Virus record (IMG/VR): IMGVR_UViG_3300044655_002300
Location: 1 to 26,962 of that record
Origin: a virus
Direction: 5' to 3' (one strand)
DNA length: 26,962 bases
Made by a program: the position numbers and the translations under genes. The notes under the pieces were generated by a model. That model made no database searches and had not been told where the DNA came from. It saw only the letters and a program-made list of their open reading frames with translations. Below are positions 1-25,801 of this stretch, in pieces; within the stretch, counting starts at the first letter, position 1; each line of letters starts with the position of its first letter.

Positions 1-43
1 GGCAGACGGCGAGAGCCCAGCGTCGGAGCCCGCCGATGCGTGA
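1..43 (+). CDS. C-terminal tail of an upstream gene (partial)
   Basis: One frame is open from the left edge to a TGA at 41-43 and would encode the last 13 or so residues of an upstream protein, rich in Ala, Pro, Glu and Asp. Its stop overlaps the start codon of the next gene at 36, the same tight coupling seen across the window. Only a short tail is visible, so no function can be given, and the frame could be open by chance. Confidence 0.35.
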   Translation, partial: ADGESPASEPADA

Positions 44-890
44 CGACTTCGCCGTCTTGATACTGACTCACGGGCGCGCCGACCGCGTGATCACAGTTGA
101 GAACCTTCGCAGGGCGGGCTACACCGGCAAGATTTACCTCGTGATCGACAACGAAGACAAGACCGCCGATGACTATCGAGCAAGGTACGGCGATCAGGTC
201 TTGATGTTCGACAAGGAGGCTGTGGCGCAGACCTTCGACGAAGGGGACAACTTCAACGACCGACGGTCGATCATCTATGCCCGAAACGCGAGCTTTGACC
301 TTGCCCAATCGGTAGGAGTCAAGTACTTCGTGCAGTTCGACGACGACTACACAGGGTTCTACTTCCGGTTCCAATCGGCGGGCACCTATGGGGCGTGGCG
401 TTGCACTACGTTTGACGAGGTGATGAACGCGCTGATCGACTTCTTCGACGCAACCCCGGTCACTACGATCGCATGGTCACAGGGCGGCGACCATATCGGC
501 GGAGAGTCAAACCAGAACGCTATGCGTCGTAAGGCTATGAATAGTTTCCTTTGCTCAACGGATCGACGGTTCACGTTCACCGGACGGCTCAACGAAGACG
601 TCAACACCTACACCAGCCAGGGCGCGCGGGGCACCGTGTTCTTGACTGTGCTTGGAATCCAGTTGAACCAGAAGGCTACCCAGTCAAACGCCGGCGGGCT
701 CACGGAGATGTATCGCGACGGCGGCACCTACTTGAAATCGTTCTATACGGTCATGTATCAGCCATCATCCGTCAAGATTGGCGAAATGGGCGACCCTCGA
801 TCCCCAAACCACCGCATCCACCACAAGATCGACTGGCCCAAGACCGTTCCGATGATCCTCTCTCCCGAACACCGCAAGCCGAGGACCTGA
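36..890 (+). CDS. TET-associated-type DNA glycosyltransferase (TAGT-like)
   Basis: Predicted nucleotide-sugar-dependent glycosyltransferase of 284 residues. It resembles the phage family named TET-associated glycosyltransferase, thought to put sugars on 5-hydroxymethylcytosine made in phage DNA by a TET/JBP dioxygenase. Visible marks are the N-terminal strand and THGR (residues 4-14), VIDNEDKTADDY (36-47), a DEGDNF segment (68-73), a metal-binding D-x-D inside FDDDY (D102, D104) and a late NEDVN (186-190) whose E187/D188 could serve as catalytic base. A GGAG ribosome site sits 7 bases before the ATG. The gene precedes the terminase pair. Its base use is visibly less GC-rich, with many A or T third positions, unlike the genes that follow, which suggests separate acquisition. 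No TET, methyltransferase or hydroxymethylase is visible here. The family call is from memory of its motifs; glycosyltransferase is firmer than its DNA substrate. Confidence 0.7.
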   Translation: MRDDFAVLILTHGRADRVITVENLRRAGYTGKIYLVIDNEDKTADDYRARYGDQVLMFDKEAVAQTFDEGDNFNDRRSIIYARNASFDLAQSVGVKYFVQFDDDYTGFYFRFQSAGTYGAWRCTTFDEVMNALIDFFDATPVTTIAWSQGGDHIGGESNQNAMRRKAMNSFLCSTDRRFTFTGRLNEDVNTYTSQGARGTVFLTVLGIQLNQKATQSNAGGLTEMYRDGGTYLKSFYTVMYQPSSVKIGEMGDPRSPNHRIHHKIDWPKTVPMILSPEHRKPRT

Positions 891-893
891 CCG

Positions 894-1397
894 ATGACCA
901 ATCCAGCCTACGTCAAGGGCGCCCCGCGCCCGCTCAGCGTCCGGCGGCTGCTGCTCGCCGAGGCTGTCGCTGTCGGCATGACCCGCAAGAAGGCTGCCGA
1001 GTTCAGCGGCTTGTCGGTCAAGGGCGTCGAGGTCGCGCTGAAAGACCCGCGCATGAAGGCCGAGATCGAGAAGAAGATCGCGGAGATCACCAAGGAGACC
1101 CGCGGCAAGCTCCGGTCAGTCCGCAACGTGGCGATCGCTGCGCTCGGCAAGGTCGCCGGAGACGAGAACGCCCCGCCGGCCGCCCGCGTCTCTGCGGCGA
1201 CCGCGATCCTCGACCGGATCGGCGTGGGCAAGACCGAGATCGTCGAGATCGTGACCGATGACGCCGAGGGCTCGGCCGAAGACCGGATCGCCCGCCTCGC
1301 TTCGCGCTTGGGCTCCGCACTCTCCCGCATCCCCGACGCTGACGAGACCGCCGAGGACGAAGAGCCCGCCGACGAGAGCGACGACGAGGAGGGCTGA
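894..1397 (+). CDS. terS: Probable terminase small subunit
   Basis: Protein of 167 residues placed directly before the large terminase, the usual spot for the DNA-recognition subunit of the packaging motor. The N-terminal third (about residues 15-50) reads as a helix-turn-helix, with a GMTRKKAAEFSGLS helix pair. The middle (50-110) is helical with alternating charge, suitable for ring assembly. The last 30 residues are almost all Asp, Glu and Ala, a likely flexible acidic tail. A GAGGA ribosome site lies 8 bases upstream of the ATG. The stop overlaps the next start as TGATG at 1395-1399. The call rests on the helix-turn-helix and position, as this family diverges strongly; a generic DNA-binding protein is the alternative. 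Confidence 0.7.
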   Translation: MTNPAYVKGAPRPLSVRRLLLAEAVAVGMTRKKAAEFSGLSVKGVEVALKDPRMKAEIEKKIAEITKETRGKLRSVRNVAIAALGKVAGDENAPPAARVSAATAILDRIGVGKTEIVEIVTDDAEGSAEDRIARLASRLGSALSRIPDADETAEDEEPADESDDEEG

Positions 1398-3151
1398 TGC
1401 GCCCCGCCGACATCCCGGCCGTGCTCGCCGAGCTGCAGCGCAAGCTCGGGACGTACCGCGCCCTGGGCAAGCGTCCGCCCGGGGCACTGCTTGAAGCCCT
1501 CGCCGACATCGAGTTCGCCGTTGAGGCCCTCGAAGCCAAGCAGAAGGCGCGCCCGCTCGCCTACGCCCGGCTTTGGGCGCCGGAGTGCCGCACCTGCCCT
1601 CACCCCGACCCGCACGCCCCGGCGCCCCCCAAGGGCCGGCGCGGCATGCCGATGGAGCCGACCGGGCAGGGCATGGGGCACCGGTGCCCTGCCTGCGGTA
1701 TCGTCGAGGCCCGGACCTCGCAGGTCGGCGTGATCAGGGCGATGCTCGCCGGCGACTATGACCGGGCCTTCATCCTCGGGGGCAGCCGGACCGGCAAGAC
1801 CGAAGCCGGCGCGCAGCTCGCCGTCGCGGTTGCCTCAGGCTCCGACGACCCCGACGTGTGCGCTTGGGCAGACCTCAACGGCCTCGACATGTCGCGCATC
1901 CAGCGACACCCCGGGGTGTTCTGGGCTGTCTCGCAGACCTTCAACATGAGCCGCACCGTCCAGCGCGCAAAGCTTGACGTGTACCTACCGACAGGGTCGG
2001 TGCGCCGGTCTTGGCAGTCCGACAACGAAGCCGAGGTCAAGCTGCCGTCCGGAGGCCGGATCACCTGCAAAGCCTTCGCGCAGAACACGTCGGAGGGTAA
2101 CGCTCGGAACCCCTTTGAGGGAGCGCGCATCCACGGGGCATGGATCGATGAGGAGCCGCAGAGCCCCCAAGGTTTCGCGTCGATCACGGCCCGGACCATC
2201 GACTTCGACGGCCTGACCTACGCGACGATGACCCCGCTCTCGGGCTGGACTCCGTTCCTGACCGACAACGTCGGCCACCTCGACAAAGGCACGCCTGCGC
2301 CCCGGCGCCTGTTTGTGGCCTTCGTGCATGCGCTCGACAACCCGTACGTCTCGGCAGAGGTCGTCTCAGACAAGTGGGCAGGCAAGCCCGAGGCTGTGCG
2401 CCGGTCCCGCCTCCGCGGCGAGATCGTAGCCCTCGAAGGCGCCGTCCACCCCGACTTCCACAACGGCCCTCCCTACGTCATCCCTGCCTTCCAGCCCCCC
2501 GCGGAATGGACCCGCTACGGCGTGATCGACTTCGGCTCCCGCGCCCCCTTCTGCCACCTCTGGGCTGCTCACGACGAAAGCGCCGACGTGCTGCACGTTT
2601 ACCGCGAGCACTACGCCGCCGACATGCTGCTCTCCGACCACGCCGCCGAGATCTGGCGCGTCGAGGGCTGCCCGGACTGTCAGCCCCCCGAGATCGGCGG
2701 CGACGTGTGGCAAGCGTGGCGCGTGCGGGCCTTCCGCCCCGGCGGCACGGGGTGTGCGACCTGCCAGGGCTCGGGCTGCACAGCCGATGCCGTAAGCAAG
2801 CGCTGGGCCGACCCCGAGGGTAAGGACCAACGGGGCGTGCTCCAGTCGCAGTACGACCTCCCGACCGCACCGGCCCCCAAGGCACGGCCCGCGAGCTTCG
2901 ACGCGCTACACGAGCGCTTCGCCATCCGCGAGAAGTGGGGCACCCCCGGGGTGGTCATCCACGACACATGCCCCAACCTGATCCGCGAGACCTCGCGCTT
3001 GACGTGGCGCAAGACCGGCAGGGGCGGCGACGTCGACCGGTACGAGACCGACGGCGACGACCACGCCCACGACTGCCTGCGCTACCTCTGCTATGCCCTG
3101 CGCCGCGCCGCCGCGCCGGCAGAGGACGAAGCCCCCGCGCCGCGTTCTTGA
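1397..3151 (+). CDS. terL: Terminase large subunit (packaging ATPase/nuclease)
   Basis: Motor protein of 584 residues that translocates DNA into the prohead and cuts it. Walker A is GGSRTGKT (128-135). Walker B is AWIDEE, with D251 and catalytic E252. The C-terminal RNase-H-fold nuclease has candidate acids D378 (VIDFG), D472 (ADPEG) and D559 (DDHAHDCLRY). Two cysteine clusters are additions: C64/C67 with C97/C100 form a zinc-ribbon pattern before the ATPase, and C425/C428 with C453/C456 sit inside the nuclease domain before D472. An AGGAGGG ribosome site precedes the ATG, which overlaps the terS stop. The zinc-binding reading is inferred; the terminase identity is very secure. Confidence 0.95.
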   Translation: MRPADIPAVLAELQRKLGTYRALGKRPPGALLEALADIEFAVEALEAKQKARPLAYARLWAPECRTCPHPDPHAPAPPKGRRGMPMEPTGQGMGHRCPACGIVEARTSQVGVIRAMLAGDYDRAFILGGSRTGKTEAGAQLAVAVASGSDDPDVCAWADLNGLDMSRIQRHPGVFWAVSQTFNMSRTVQRAKLDVYLPTGSVRRSWQSDNEAEVKLPSGGRITCKAFAQNTSEGNARNPFEGARIHGAWIDEEPQSPQGFASITARTIDFDGLTYATMTPLSGWTPFLTDNVGHLDKGTPAPRRLFVAFVHALDNPYVSAEVVSDKWAGKPEAVRRSRLRGEIVALEGAVHPDFHNGPPYVIPAFQPPAEWTRYGVIDFGSRAPFCHLWAAHDESADVLHVYREHYAADMLLSDHAAEIWRVEGCPDCQPPEIGGDVWQAWRVRAFRPGGTGCATCQGSGCTADAVSKRWADPEGKDQRGVLQSQYDLPTAPAPKARPASFDALHERFAIREKWGTPGVVIHDTCPNLIRETSRLTWRKTGRGGDVDRYETDGDDHAHDCLRYLCYALRRAAAPAEDEAPAPRS

Positions 3152-19811: not shown

Positions 19812-19927
19812 CCCTCACGATCCGCGACCCCGACGGCGCCCCGGTCCGTGTCATGCGCCTGCGGTCCCGCGACCTGATCGACTACGCCACCCGATACCAG
19901 CGCCGGCGCGGCGCGGTGGAGGCTTGA
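19808..19927 (+). CDS. Very small basic protein, unknown
   Basis: A 39-residue frame, too small for strong statistics, with ATG overlapping the previous stop (ATGA at 19808-19811) and a GGGAGGGAG run about 7 bases upstream. It is Arg-rich (VRVMRLRSRDLIDY, RYQRRRGAVE), with a short strand at the start and a helix after. It ends just before the endolysin, whose GGAGG ribosome site lies within its last codons. The overlap geometry and ribosome site support translation. Confidence 0.5.
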   Translation: MTLTIRDPDGAPVRVMRLRSRDLIDYATRYQRRRGAVEA

Positions 19928-19929
19928 CC

Positions 19930-20343
19930 ATGCCGTACACCTGGGGCCAGTCCAGCCTCGCGCAGATCGCCACCGCCGACCCGCGCCTGCAGACCCTCTG
20001 CCACCGCCTGATCAAGCGCGCCGACCTGCCGCGCGACGTGCGCGTGCTCTTCGGCCACCGCAACAAGGCCGATCAGGACAAGGCTTTCGCGTCGGGCGCG
20101 AGCAAACTGCGGTGGCCAAAGAGCAAGCACAACAGCACCCCGTCCCTCGCCGTCGACATCGTGGTCCTTGACGGCGGGGGTGTGTCGTGGGATTGGGCGC
20201 ACTACAACGCCCTTGCGCCCATTGTGAAGGACGAATGGGCCAAGATGGCCGCCGAGGGCCTCACCGGCGGCGCCACGCTGACGTGGGGTGGCGACTGGCG
20301 CAGTTTCAAGGATGGGCCGCATTGGGAGCTGTCCGGTGTCTGA
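19930..20343 (+). CDS. Endolysin, M15-type peptidase (VanY/L-Ala-D-Glu-like)
   Basis: A 137-residue zinc peptidase that would cut the peptide part of peptidoglycan to release progeny. Zinc ligands are visible: H67 and D76 in SKHNSTPSLAVDI and H131 in DGPHWEL, with D128 the likely catalytic residue. FGHRNKADQDKAF (about 40-52) is the usual region before the metal site. It has no signal peptide or wall-binding domain, so it needs the holin. The ATG at 19930 is preferred because GGAGG (19918-19922) precedes it by 7 bases; an upstream TTG at 19924 is possible. The holin-like gene follows directly. Confidence 0.9.
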   Translation: MPYTWGQSSLAQIATADPRLQTLCHRLIKRADLPRDVRVLFGHRNKADQDKAFASGASKLRWPKSKHNSTPSLAVDIVVLDGGGVSWDWAHYNALAPIVKDEWAKMAAEGLTGGATLTWGGDWRSFKDGPHWELSGV

Positions 20344-24567: not shown

Positions 24568-24923
24568 GATGCACCGCCGGCGGGCAACTCATCAGCTTTG
24601 CTTACAGGTTCAACCGGGGCGAGCTTCCGCACGATCTCCTCGGCGAGATCGAGCCCCCGCAGGCGCCCCGCGCCGTAGTGGTCATCATCCACGAGCCGAC
24701 TCTCCAGGGCGCTGTATCGCTTGTCAAGGGCTGCGCAGGCATCGTCAACCGCCCGGCGGTAGCCGGTGGCCTCGCCCTCGGAGCGGGCCGCGGTGATCAT
24801 GCCGGCCAGCGCCTCGGCGAGGTCCGCCAGCCCGACCGGCGTGAATCGCACCGCGCTGACCTCGCCCACGGTGTCGATGCTGATCGCGTCCATAATGGCG
24901 CGCAGCGCGTCGTCAGCGTCCAT
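24564..24923 (-). CDS. Hypothetical helical protein, 119 residues
   Basis: The ATG at 24923 overlaps the thyX stop as TGATG, and a G-rich run (AAGGGGGG) lies just upstream. The long in-frame extension to 25526 lies over thyX and is a shadow. The protein is mostly helical and charged: MDADDALRAIMDAISIDT, VGLADLAEALAGMITAARSE, then a coiled-coil-like AALDKRYSALESRL and LDLAEEIVRKLAPVEP. No family recognised; oligomerisation seems likely from the helix pattern. Confidence 0.65.
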   Translation of the reverse strand: MDADDALRAIMDAISIDTVGEVSAVRFTPVGLADLAEALAGMITAARSEGEATGYRRAVDDACAALDKRYSALESRLVDDDHYGAGRLRGLDLAEEIVRKLAPVEPVSKADELPAGGAS

Positions 24924-25801
24924 CACACACCCCCCTTCGCGGCCCACGCCGCGGTGATCAGGCTCATCGTCTCCCGCCGCTCCCGCTCGGGCAGCGCCCC
25001 CAGCGCCCCGGCCAGCGCGTCCGGGTCGAGACACCCGGCCAGGGCCCGCCACGCCGAGGCCGACAGGCGCGGCGCGTCGCGGACGTGCTCGACCCACGCC
25101 GACCACGTCAGCGGGTAGGCATCGGCGACCACCATCGCGACCTGCTCGGCGAGCAGGCGGGTCTCGCGCTGGGCGTCGGGGGCGCAGCGCAGGCGGAGGA
25201 AGTGGAGAAGGTTGTGCAGGTCGATCTTCCAGACGAAGGCCGTCATCGTGGCCAGCGGCAGGACGGAGCGGGCCTGCTCGCGGCTCACGCCGATGGCCCG
25301 CAGAGACCGGTAGAAGGACCGCTGGTTCGTGAGCGCGAAGCGCATCGCCTCCGCTGCAGCCGCGGGCGCCTTGACCACCGCGCCCCGGCCCTGCTTGCTC
25401 GCGCCCGGATCGGGGTCGGCGCAGAGATCGCCCAAGCCCTCCGCCGGCATGATCTCGGCGTCCATGGCGGGCTCGGTGTAGCGCAGGCTGCGCTCGTTGA
25501 CGCTGGCCGTCCGGTGCCGGAGCCACTGGCGGGCCACGAAGATCGGGGCCTCGACTTGGAACACCATCTCGGCCATCTCCAGCGGAGAGGTGTGGCCGTG
25601 ACGCTCAAGGAAGTTGATGAGCTTCGCGTCGGCATCGGCGCCGCGGTCGGCGCTCTCGCGGCCGTAGCTGACGCGGGCGGCCCGCGAGATCGAAGCGTCG
25701 GTGCCGCAGTAGTCCCGCAGGGTGATGCTGCCGATGTGGGGCACGGCGTGGCGGACGCCGAGGTGAGCCTCAGCGCCGGGGTTGATGGGGCGGAGGGTCA
25801 T
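24923..25801 (-). CDS. thyX: Flavin-dependent thymidylate synthase ThyX
   Basis: A 292-residue enzyme that makes dTMP from dUMP using methylene-tetrahydrofolate, FAD and NAD(P)H, feeding phage DNA synthesis. The diagnostic RHRTASVNERSLRY (residues 95-108) matches the ThyX motif RHRxxSxNExSxR. Other family segments are RVSYGRES, HTSPLEMAEMVFQVEAPIFV, and SREQARSVLPLATMTAFVWK leading into KIDLHNLLHFLRLR. The length and the C-terminal extension with SAWVEHVRDAPRLSASAW suit the longer type I recall from proteobacteria. An AAGGAG site (25807-25812) precedes the ATG, which overlaps the previous gene by 4 bases. It is the only clear metabolic enzyme of the leftward run. Confidence 0.95.
   Translation of the reverse strand: MTLRPINPGAEAHLGVRHAVPHIGSITLRDYCGTDASISRAARVSYGRESADRGADADAKLINFLERHGHTSPLEMAEMVFQVEAPIFVARQWLRHRTASVNERSLRYTEPAMDAEIMPAEGLGDLCADPDPGASKQGRGAVVKAPAAAAEAMRFALTNQRSFYRSLRAIGVSREQARSVLPLATMTAFVWKIDLHNLLHFLRLRCAPDAQRETRLLAEQVAMVVADAYPLTWSAWVEHVRDAPRLSASAWRALAGCLDPDALAGALGALPERERRETMSLITAAWAAKGGV

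Follow-up and report, generated by a model that had tools for sequence, protein, structure and literature searches.

The gene that opens this viral sequence encodes a putative glycosyltransferase standing directly ahead of the packaging genes, which raises the question of what the enzyme glycosylates and with which partner it works. The window analysed here is the whole of IMG/VR record IMGVR_UViG_3300044655_002300, a linear stretch of 26,962 bases that probably represents a fragment of a genome; megablast of the window against phages gave no match. A sequence-only reading had assigned the protein to the TET-associated-type glycosyltransferases (TAGTs) and tied it to a route through 5-hydroxymethylcytosine (5hmC). 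The features on which the argument depends are collected in Table 1.

Table 1. Features at the left end of the window, with the evidence for each assignment
Feature	Position	Strand	Evidence
Upstream-gene tail ADGESPASEPADA*, cut by the left edge of the record (putative ParB-CTD partner)	2..43	+	Reading frame
TAGT-family GT-A glycosyltransferase, 284 aa, ATG start	36..890	+	PF20691 122.5 bits; PHROG_842 251 bits; AlphaFold2 and Foldseek
DxD motif D102-D103-D104	339..347	+	Invariant in 51 sequences; aligned with DDD of T6 Ggt
xED-type motif N186-E187-D188-V189-N190	591..605	+	N186, D188 and V189 invariant; aligned with C-E-D of T6 Ggt
H262-H263, candidate C-terminal metal-binding His	819..824	+	Invariant; role suggested by other GT-A enzymes
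Terminase small subunit (probable)	894..1397	+	phrog_2538 1.5e-4; 65% to the same-place gene in L005
Terminase large subunit	1397..3151	+	PF03237 25.2 bits; phrog_2 2e-17; 57-71% to L005, L126-L128

The family assignment stands, as the protein matches the Pfam TAGT profile over the full length of the profile (positions 1-205/205, E-value 3e-35, cut-off 27.5 bits) and PHROG_842, annotated as beta-glucosyl-HMC-alpha-glucosyltransferase, matches it with an E-value of 3.3e-74. The AlphaFold2 model is confident (mean pLDDT 87.7) and has a predicted GT-A fold that carries the DxD motif. The D-x-D (D102/D104) and late NEDVN motifs named from the sequence were both recovered in the alignment with relatives, with D102-D104, the N, D and V of NEDVN, and H262-H263 all invariant. 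In GT-A enzymes the DxD motif binds the sugar-nucleotide and metal, while an xED-type motif provides the general base of inverting members. Since N-E-D would serve as this base, the TAGT reaction is probably inverting, which matches the beta-linked gentiobiose product of T6. In a Foldseek search, the PDB neighbours of the model are assorted generic GT-A glycosyltransferases, several of which act on proteins (e.g. ColGalT1 and SunS), and the viral structure neighbours are TAGTs and the T-even-type Ggt of Klebsiella phage PKO111 (E 1.4e-7). Sequence searches of the PDB returned no match for the single TAGT and nothing beyond weak chance matches for the TAGT profile. Enzymes modifying glycans or teichoic acids, which the earlier reading had named as the matches that would speak against it, were not among the best matches in viral structures or families. 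The window gene is a phage TET-associated-type glycosyltransferase.

The record ends 35 bases to the left of the TAGT gene, and the sequence-only reading saw no partner for it. However, bases 2-43 hold the last 13 codons of an upstream gene which overlaps the start of the TAGT gene by 8 bp. The junction CCGATGCGT and the 8-bp overlap are common to the window and its relatives L005, L007 and L126-L128, in which the upstream gene encodes a ParB-like N-terminal domain (ParB_N) followed by a second domain, the CTD. Synteny with these loci extends into the terminase genes, at 65% for the small and 57% for the large subunit in L005 and at 70-71% for the large subunit in L126-L128. From the shared junction we infer that the cut-off window gene encodes the same ParB-CTD partner, the domain itself lying outside the record.

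To what extent this partner is a constant one was determined from relatives gathered by tblastn and IMG/VR searches (34 phage records and 68 contigs) and from a GTDB scan that contributed 44 further TAGT loci from many phyla; overall, the pairing was seen in about 190 related loci. In the examined loci the TAGT start coincides with, or lies close to, the end of an ORF, with 64 of 65 upstream proteins matching PHROG_620 (ParB-like) and 48 matching Pfam ParB_N. Profiles built here split the partner into ParB_N and a conserved C-terminal domain of about 110 aa, the CTD. Within the subfamily recruited by the window TAGT, rather than among all TAGTs, and with some records and contigs being near-duplicates so that the counts are not independent events, the gene before the TAGT carries the CTD in each of the 117 TAGT-recruited loci that have 350 or more bases upstream, ParB_N lies ahead of the CTD in 92/109 TAGT-recruited loci, the reverse search finds a TAGT downstream in 75 of the 76 CTD-recruited IMG/VR loci, and all 30 CTD records in INPHARED are TAGT records as well. 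Distance matrices correlate most strongly for TAGT and CTD (r = 0.83), followed by TAGT and ParB_N (0.70) and TAGT and the next long gene (0.50), with permutation maxima of 0.17 or less. As the pairing counts in both directions and the distance correlations favour the CTD, it is the CTD and not ParB that is the constant partner of the TAGT. A Pfam search of the CTD gave no assignment above cut-off, and in the PDB the model of the whole partner matches proteins of the ParB/sulfiredoxin type. The pairing spans viruses of bacteria and archaea. Two loci deviate: a prophage contig (L161 5566-7125) has a ParB-CTD without a TAGT, with another ORF starting right after it in a packaging-type neighbourhood, and in L070 the TAGT reading frame is broken by frameshifts.

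The pair occurs in two genomic settings. The idea of a modification module adjoining the packaging genes is upheld in the window, where the terminase genes directly follow the TAGT and portal, Mu F-like and protease genes lie further downstream, and in the cassettes with ParB, the downstream genes are mostly terminase. ParB-less CTD-TAGT pairs have a family A DNA polymerase on one side and a DnaN-like clamp on the other (L051, L059, L065, L105 and others) or adjoin primase/helicase genes; the ParB-less form is also present in Vibrio phages.

A first point of comparison is phage T6, whose Ggt attaches glucose to DNA cytosines that are already alpha-glucosylated and whose TAGT is reported to have a GT-A fold (PMC13216743). 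T6/T2 Ggt shares the Pfam and PHROG families of the window TAGT (T6 Ggt scores 35.8 bits against PF20691 and 263.6 bits against PHROG_842), and the DDD and E-D motifs align. The kinship is nevertheless remote: hhalign of the window TAGT family against T6 Ggt gave nothing, which leaves Pfam, PHROG and structure to carry the link. The two also differ in context, as T6 Ggt works in a dCMP-hydroxymethylase/alpha-GT pathway (PMC13216743), while the relatives of the window mostly lack a hydroxymethylase-type gene in a PF00303 search; no CTD was detected in the 30-kb T6 stretch L073, whereas the window TAGT family has its CTD partner. Another counterpart may be the “solitary TAGT” phages, which make up 288 of the 753 TAGT-bearing phage genomes of one survey, over a third, and carry neither alpha-GT nor beta-GT, the role of their TAGTs being left open there (PMC13216743). 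The relatives of the window seem to fall into this group. No partner for these enzymes is named in the passages of PMC13216743 consulted, whereas a CTD partner in ParB-fused and replication-type forms was found here.

A second comparison concerns the ParB module. The Gordonia phage CaiB has a ParB-TET-ADDT-kinase operon upstream of terminase (PMC9302106). It is headed by the same ParB_N module (83 bits), and both systems place the ParB_N gene first, followed by overlapping modification genes and then terminase. In contrast to the ParB-CTD/TAGT cassette, CaiB combines a TET, an amino-acid:DNA transferase and a kinase, its ParB is devoid of a CTD, and no TAGT was found in the operon. Because the same module, without a CTD, heads this operon, ParB_N seems to be an adaptor common to the DNA-modification operons of phages. 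Systems of the CaiB kind were reportedly predicted by Iyer et al. in 2013. What is already known comprises the TAGTs, the action of the T6 enzyme on DNA and the occurrence of ParB genes in modification operons of phages. The two-way TAGT-CTD pairing, the replication-type form without ParB and the tailoring genes described below were not found in the literature consulted, with priority uncertain since an earlier ParB-TAGT description is possible (Iyer et al. 2013).

The explanation that accounts best for these observations is a two-gene cassette of ParB-CTD and TAGT which glycosylates the virus's own DNA, and we consider it moderately likely to be correct. The ParB/sulfiredoxin fold binds nucleotides in known relatives of ParB_N. 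In the proposed mechanism, ParB_N would load the complex onto the DNA, a role that ParB may also have in other DNA-modification operons of phages, while in replication-type versions an association with the polymerase and clamp genes would replace this loading step. The helical CTD would act as a fixed adaptor or activator of the TAGT, which would then move a sugar from a nucleotide-sugar to DNA by GT-A chemistry, with DxD holding the donor and N-E-D serving as base, shortly before packaging. In some relatives, extra TAGTs, a radical-SAM enzyme, a methyltransferase, a kinase or a cytidylyltransferase may extend or decorate the sugar. We infer DNA as the substrate, the order of the steps and the role of the CTD; DNA is favoured by the polymerase/clamp setting, by the presence of T6 Ggt in the same Pfam and PHROG families, and by the co-purification of T4 alpha-GT with the T4 clamp gp45 (PMC13216743). 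Against the cassette weigh the negative searches of the complete isolates for an enzyme that would make a hydroxylated base, the remoteness of the T6 kinship, the generic GT-A neighbours in the PDB and the position of the partner gene outside the window. The literature consulted yielded no virion DNA analysis of these phages and nothing usable on how HHTV-2 or the Lactobacillus phages behave towards restriction.

The setting of the ParB-less versions, among replication genes and not structural genes, also bears on the main rival, in which the TAGT glycosylates a protein, be it the ParB-CTD partner, the terminase, a component of the capsid or tail, or a protein of the host. A late-operon position adjoining the head genes would suit such a role, and the protein glycosyltransferases ColGalT1 and SunS are among the PDB neighbours of the model. 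RefSeq names the E. coli homologue “GREB1-related”, and GREB1 has been reported to glycosylate a protein. The partner, however, has a ParB fold, and the TAGT shares its Pfam and PHROG families with an enzyme that glucosylates DNA, which makes a protein substrate unlikely.

The route favoured by the sequence-only reading, in which a TET/JBP dioxygenase, a hydroxymethylase or preceding host methylation gives rise to the 5hmC on which the TAGT acts and the partner enzyme is encoded at another place in the genome, was not borne out and appears quite unlikely. Neither Tet_JBP (PF12851) nor phrog_6059 was found in any of the 36 related records, which included T6 as a control. PF12851 is a weak detector, giving 20.9 bits for the CaiB TET control, and phrog_6059, at 462 bits for the same control, is a narrow phage-TET family; therefore, a divergent dioxygenase could escape detection. 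A C5-methyltransferase is present in 3/36 records, all of them contigs and none an isolate, and PF00303 (thymidylate-synthase/dCMP-hydroxymethylase type) is matched in the T6 control, where gp42 is also picked up, and otherwise only in a single contig and a single Vibrio phage. No TET, C5-methyltransferase or hydroxymethylase-type genes were found in the complete Lactobacillus phage isolates c5 (31.8 kb) and jlb1 (38.3 kb) or in the complete isolates HHTV-2 and NTR1, and the latter two kinds of gene were likewise not found in the Rac-like E. coli phage record. What speaks for the 5hmC route is the name of the family and the T6 precedent (PMC13216743), the three contigs with a C5-methyltransferase, and the fact that the window is a fragment whose own genome lies beyond the reach of the check. 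The steady partner of the TAGT is instead the CTD protein, usually fused to ParB. As no enzyme for a hydroxylated base was found in the four complete isolates, the acceptor is unexplained: either an unrecognised enzyme or the host supplies the hydroxyl, or the sugar is attached to the base itself. PHROG_6059, which matches the TET-like dioxygenase of CaiB (L199 801-1661), is named “queuine tRNA-ribosyltransferase”, likely a misnomer.

Modification of a host surface glycan for serotype conversion or superinfection exclusion, a common role of prophage glycosyltransferases with which the GT-A fold would agree, is highly improbable, as no flippase or membrane partner was seen beside the TAGT, which sits in packaging or replication operons and keeps its fixed CTD/ParB pairing across viruses of bacteria and archaea.

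A more tentative proposal, possible though on the doubtful side, is a hydroxymethyl-independent system of DNA glycosylation in viruses of bacteria and archaea. Here, CTD and TAGT would put the sugar on an ordinary base or a self-made acceptor, with radical-SAM, methyl, kinase or cytidylyltransferase tailoring as an option; the likelihood assigned to this proposal overlaps with that of the cassette model. If it is true, TAGTs would depend on the CTD as a new and obligatory cofactor domain.

The accessory genes look like such optional tailoring around a core glycosylation step. Tandem TAGTs occur in 12 loci. A radical-SAM enzyme is encoded directly 3' of the TAGT in L078 (10871-11830), L089, L098 and L100, and L097 shows a similar motif; most of these loci have a CNNRCPYC motif, and the genomes are mainly Clostridia-type. 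Methyltransferases are located inside or beside the module in L094, L115 and L186 and a P-loop kinase-like protein in that of L111, the assignments in L186 and L111 being mainly motif readings. Cytidylyltransferase-like proteins (PF01467), which could possibly supply an activated donor, lie inside or beside the CTD-TAGT pair in L197 (1330-2302), where the protein also carries a histidine phosphatase domain, and in L108 (5867-6295). The ORF that comes after three consecutive TAGT genes in L122 (4421-7016) has a CNRKCNYC motif.

The cassette also reaches into a well-studied species. Rac-like prophages of E. coli have ParB-CTD (ynaK), TAGT and terminase in the same order, and ynaK-TAGT is present with at least 80% of the query covered in 863 of 5,426 complete genomes (loci L116 4150-6123 and L202), so that it may shape phage restriction in E. 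coli. This system differs in its annotation, which assigns no function: in the examined records ynaK carries the PGAP label “incomplete pseudogene”, and the TAGT goes under various names, either “hypothetical” or “GREB1-related”. Full-length ParB-CTD ORFs are present in L002 and L116 despite this label, which may be an annotation artefact since it recurs across strains (E. coli ATCC 8739 and others). More generally, sugar-modified DNA bears on the escape from restriction, on the type IV enzymes that attack such DNA and on sequencing artefacts. With a fixed partner domain, two search directions and two genomic settings, the question of the lone TAGT becomes a two-protein experiment.

The base use of the TAGT gene had been read as a sign that it moved in with a modification or anti-restriction module. 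The difference itself is real, the gene having a GC content of 57% and a GC3 of 76% compared to 68-73% and 85-94% for most other genes of the window. However, the TAGT gene also lies below its surroundings in GC in other GC-rich phage loci, and across such loci the gap in GC3 is small on average (0.80 for the TAGT vs 0.835 for the next long gene, with the TAGT lower in 19/30). The gap is therefore largely a property of the TAGT family and weak evidence for a recent arrival of the window gene, and recent acquisition was set aside as an explanation. Elsewhere in the window, a Peptidase_M15_4 domain protein, a probable endolysin, is encoded at 19924-20343 on the plus strand (30.2 bits) and the flavin-dependent thymidylate synthase ThyX at 24923-25801 on the minus strand (PF02511, 162.8 bits).
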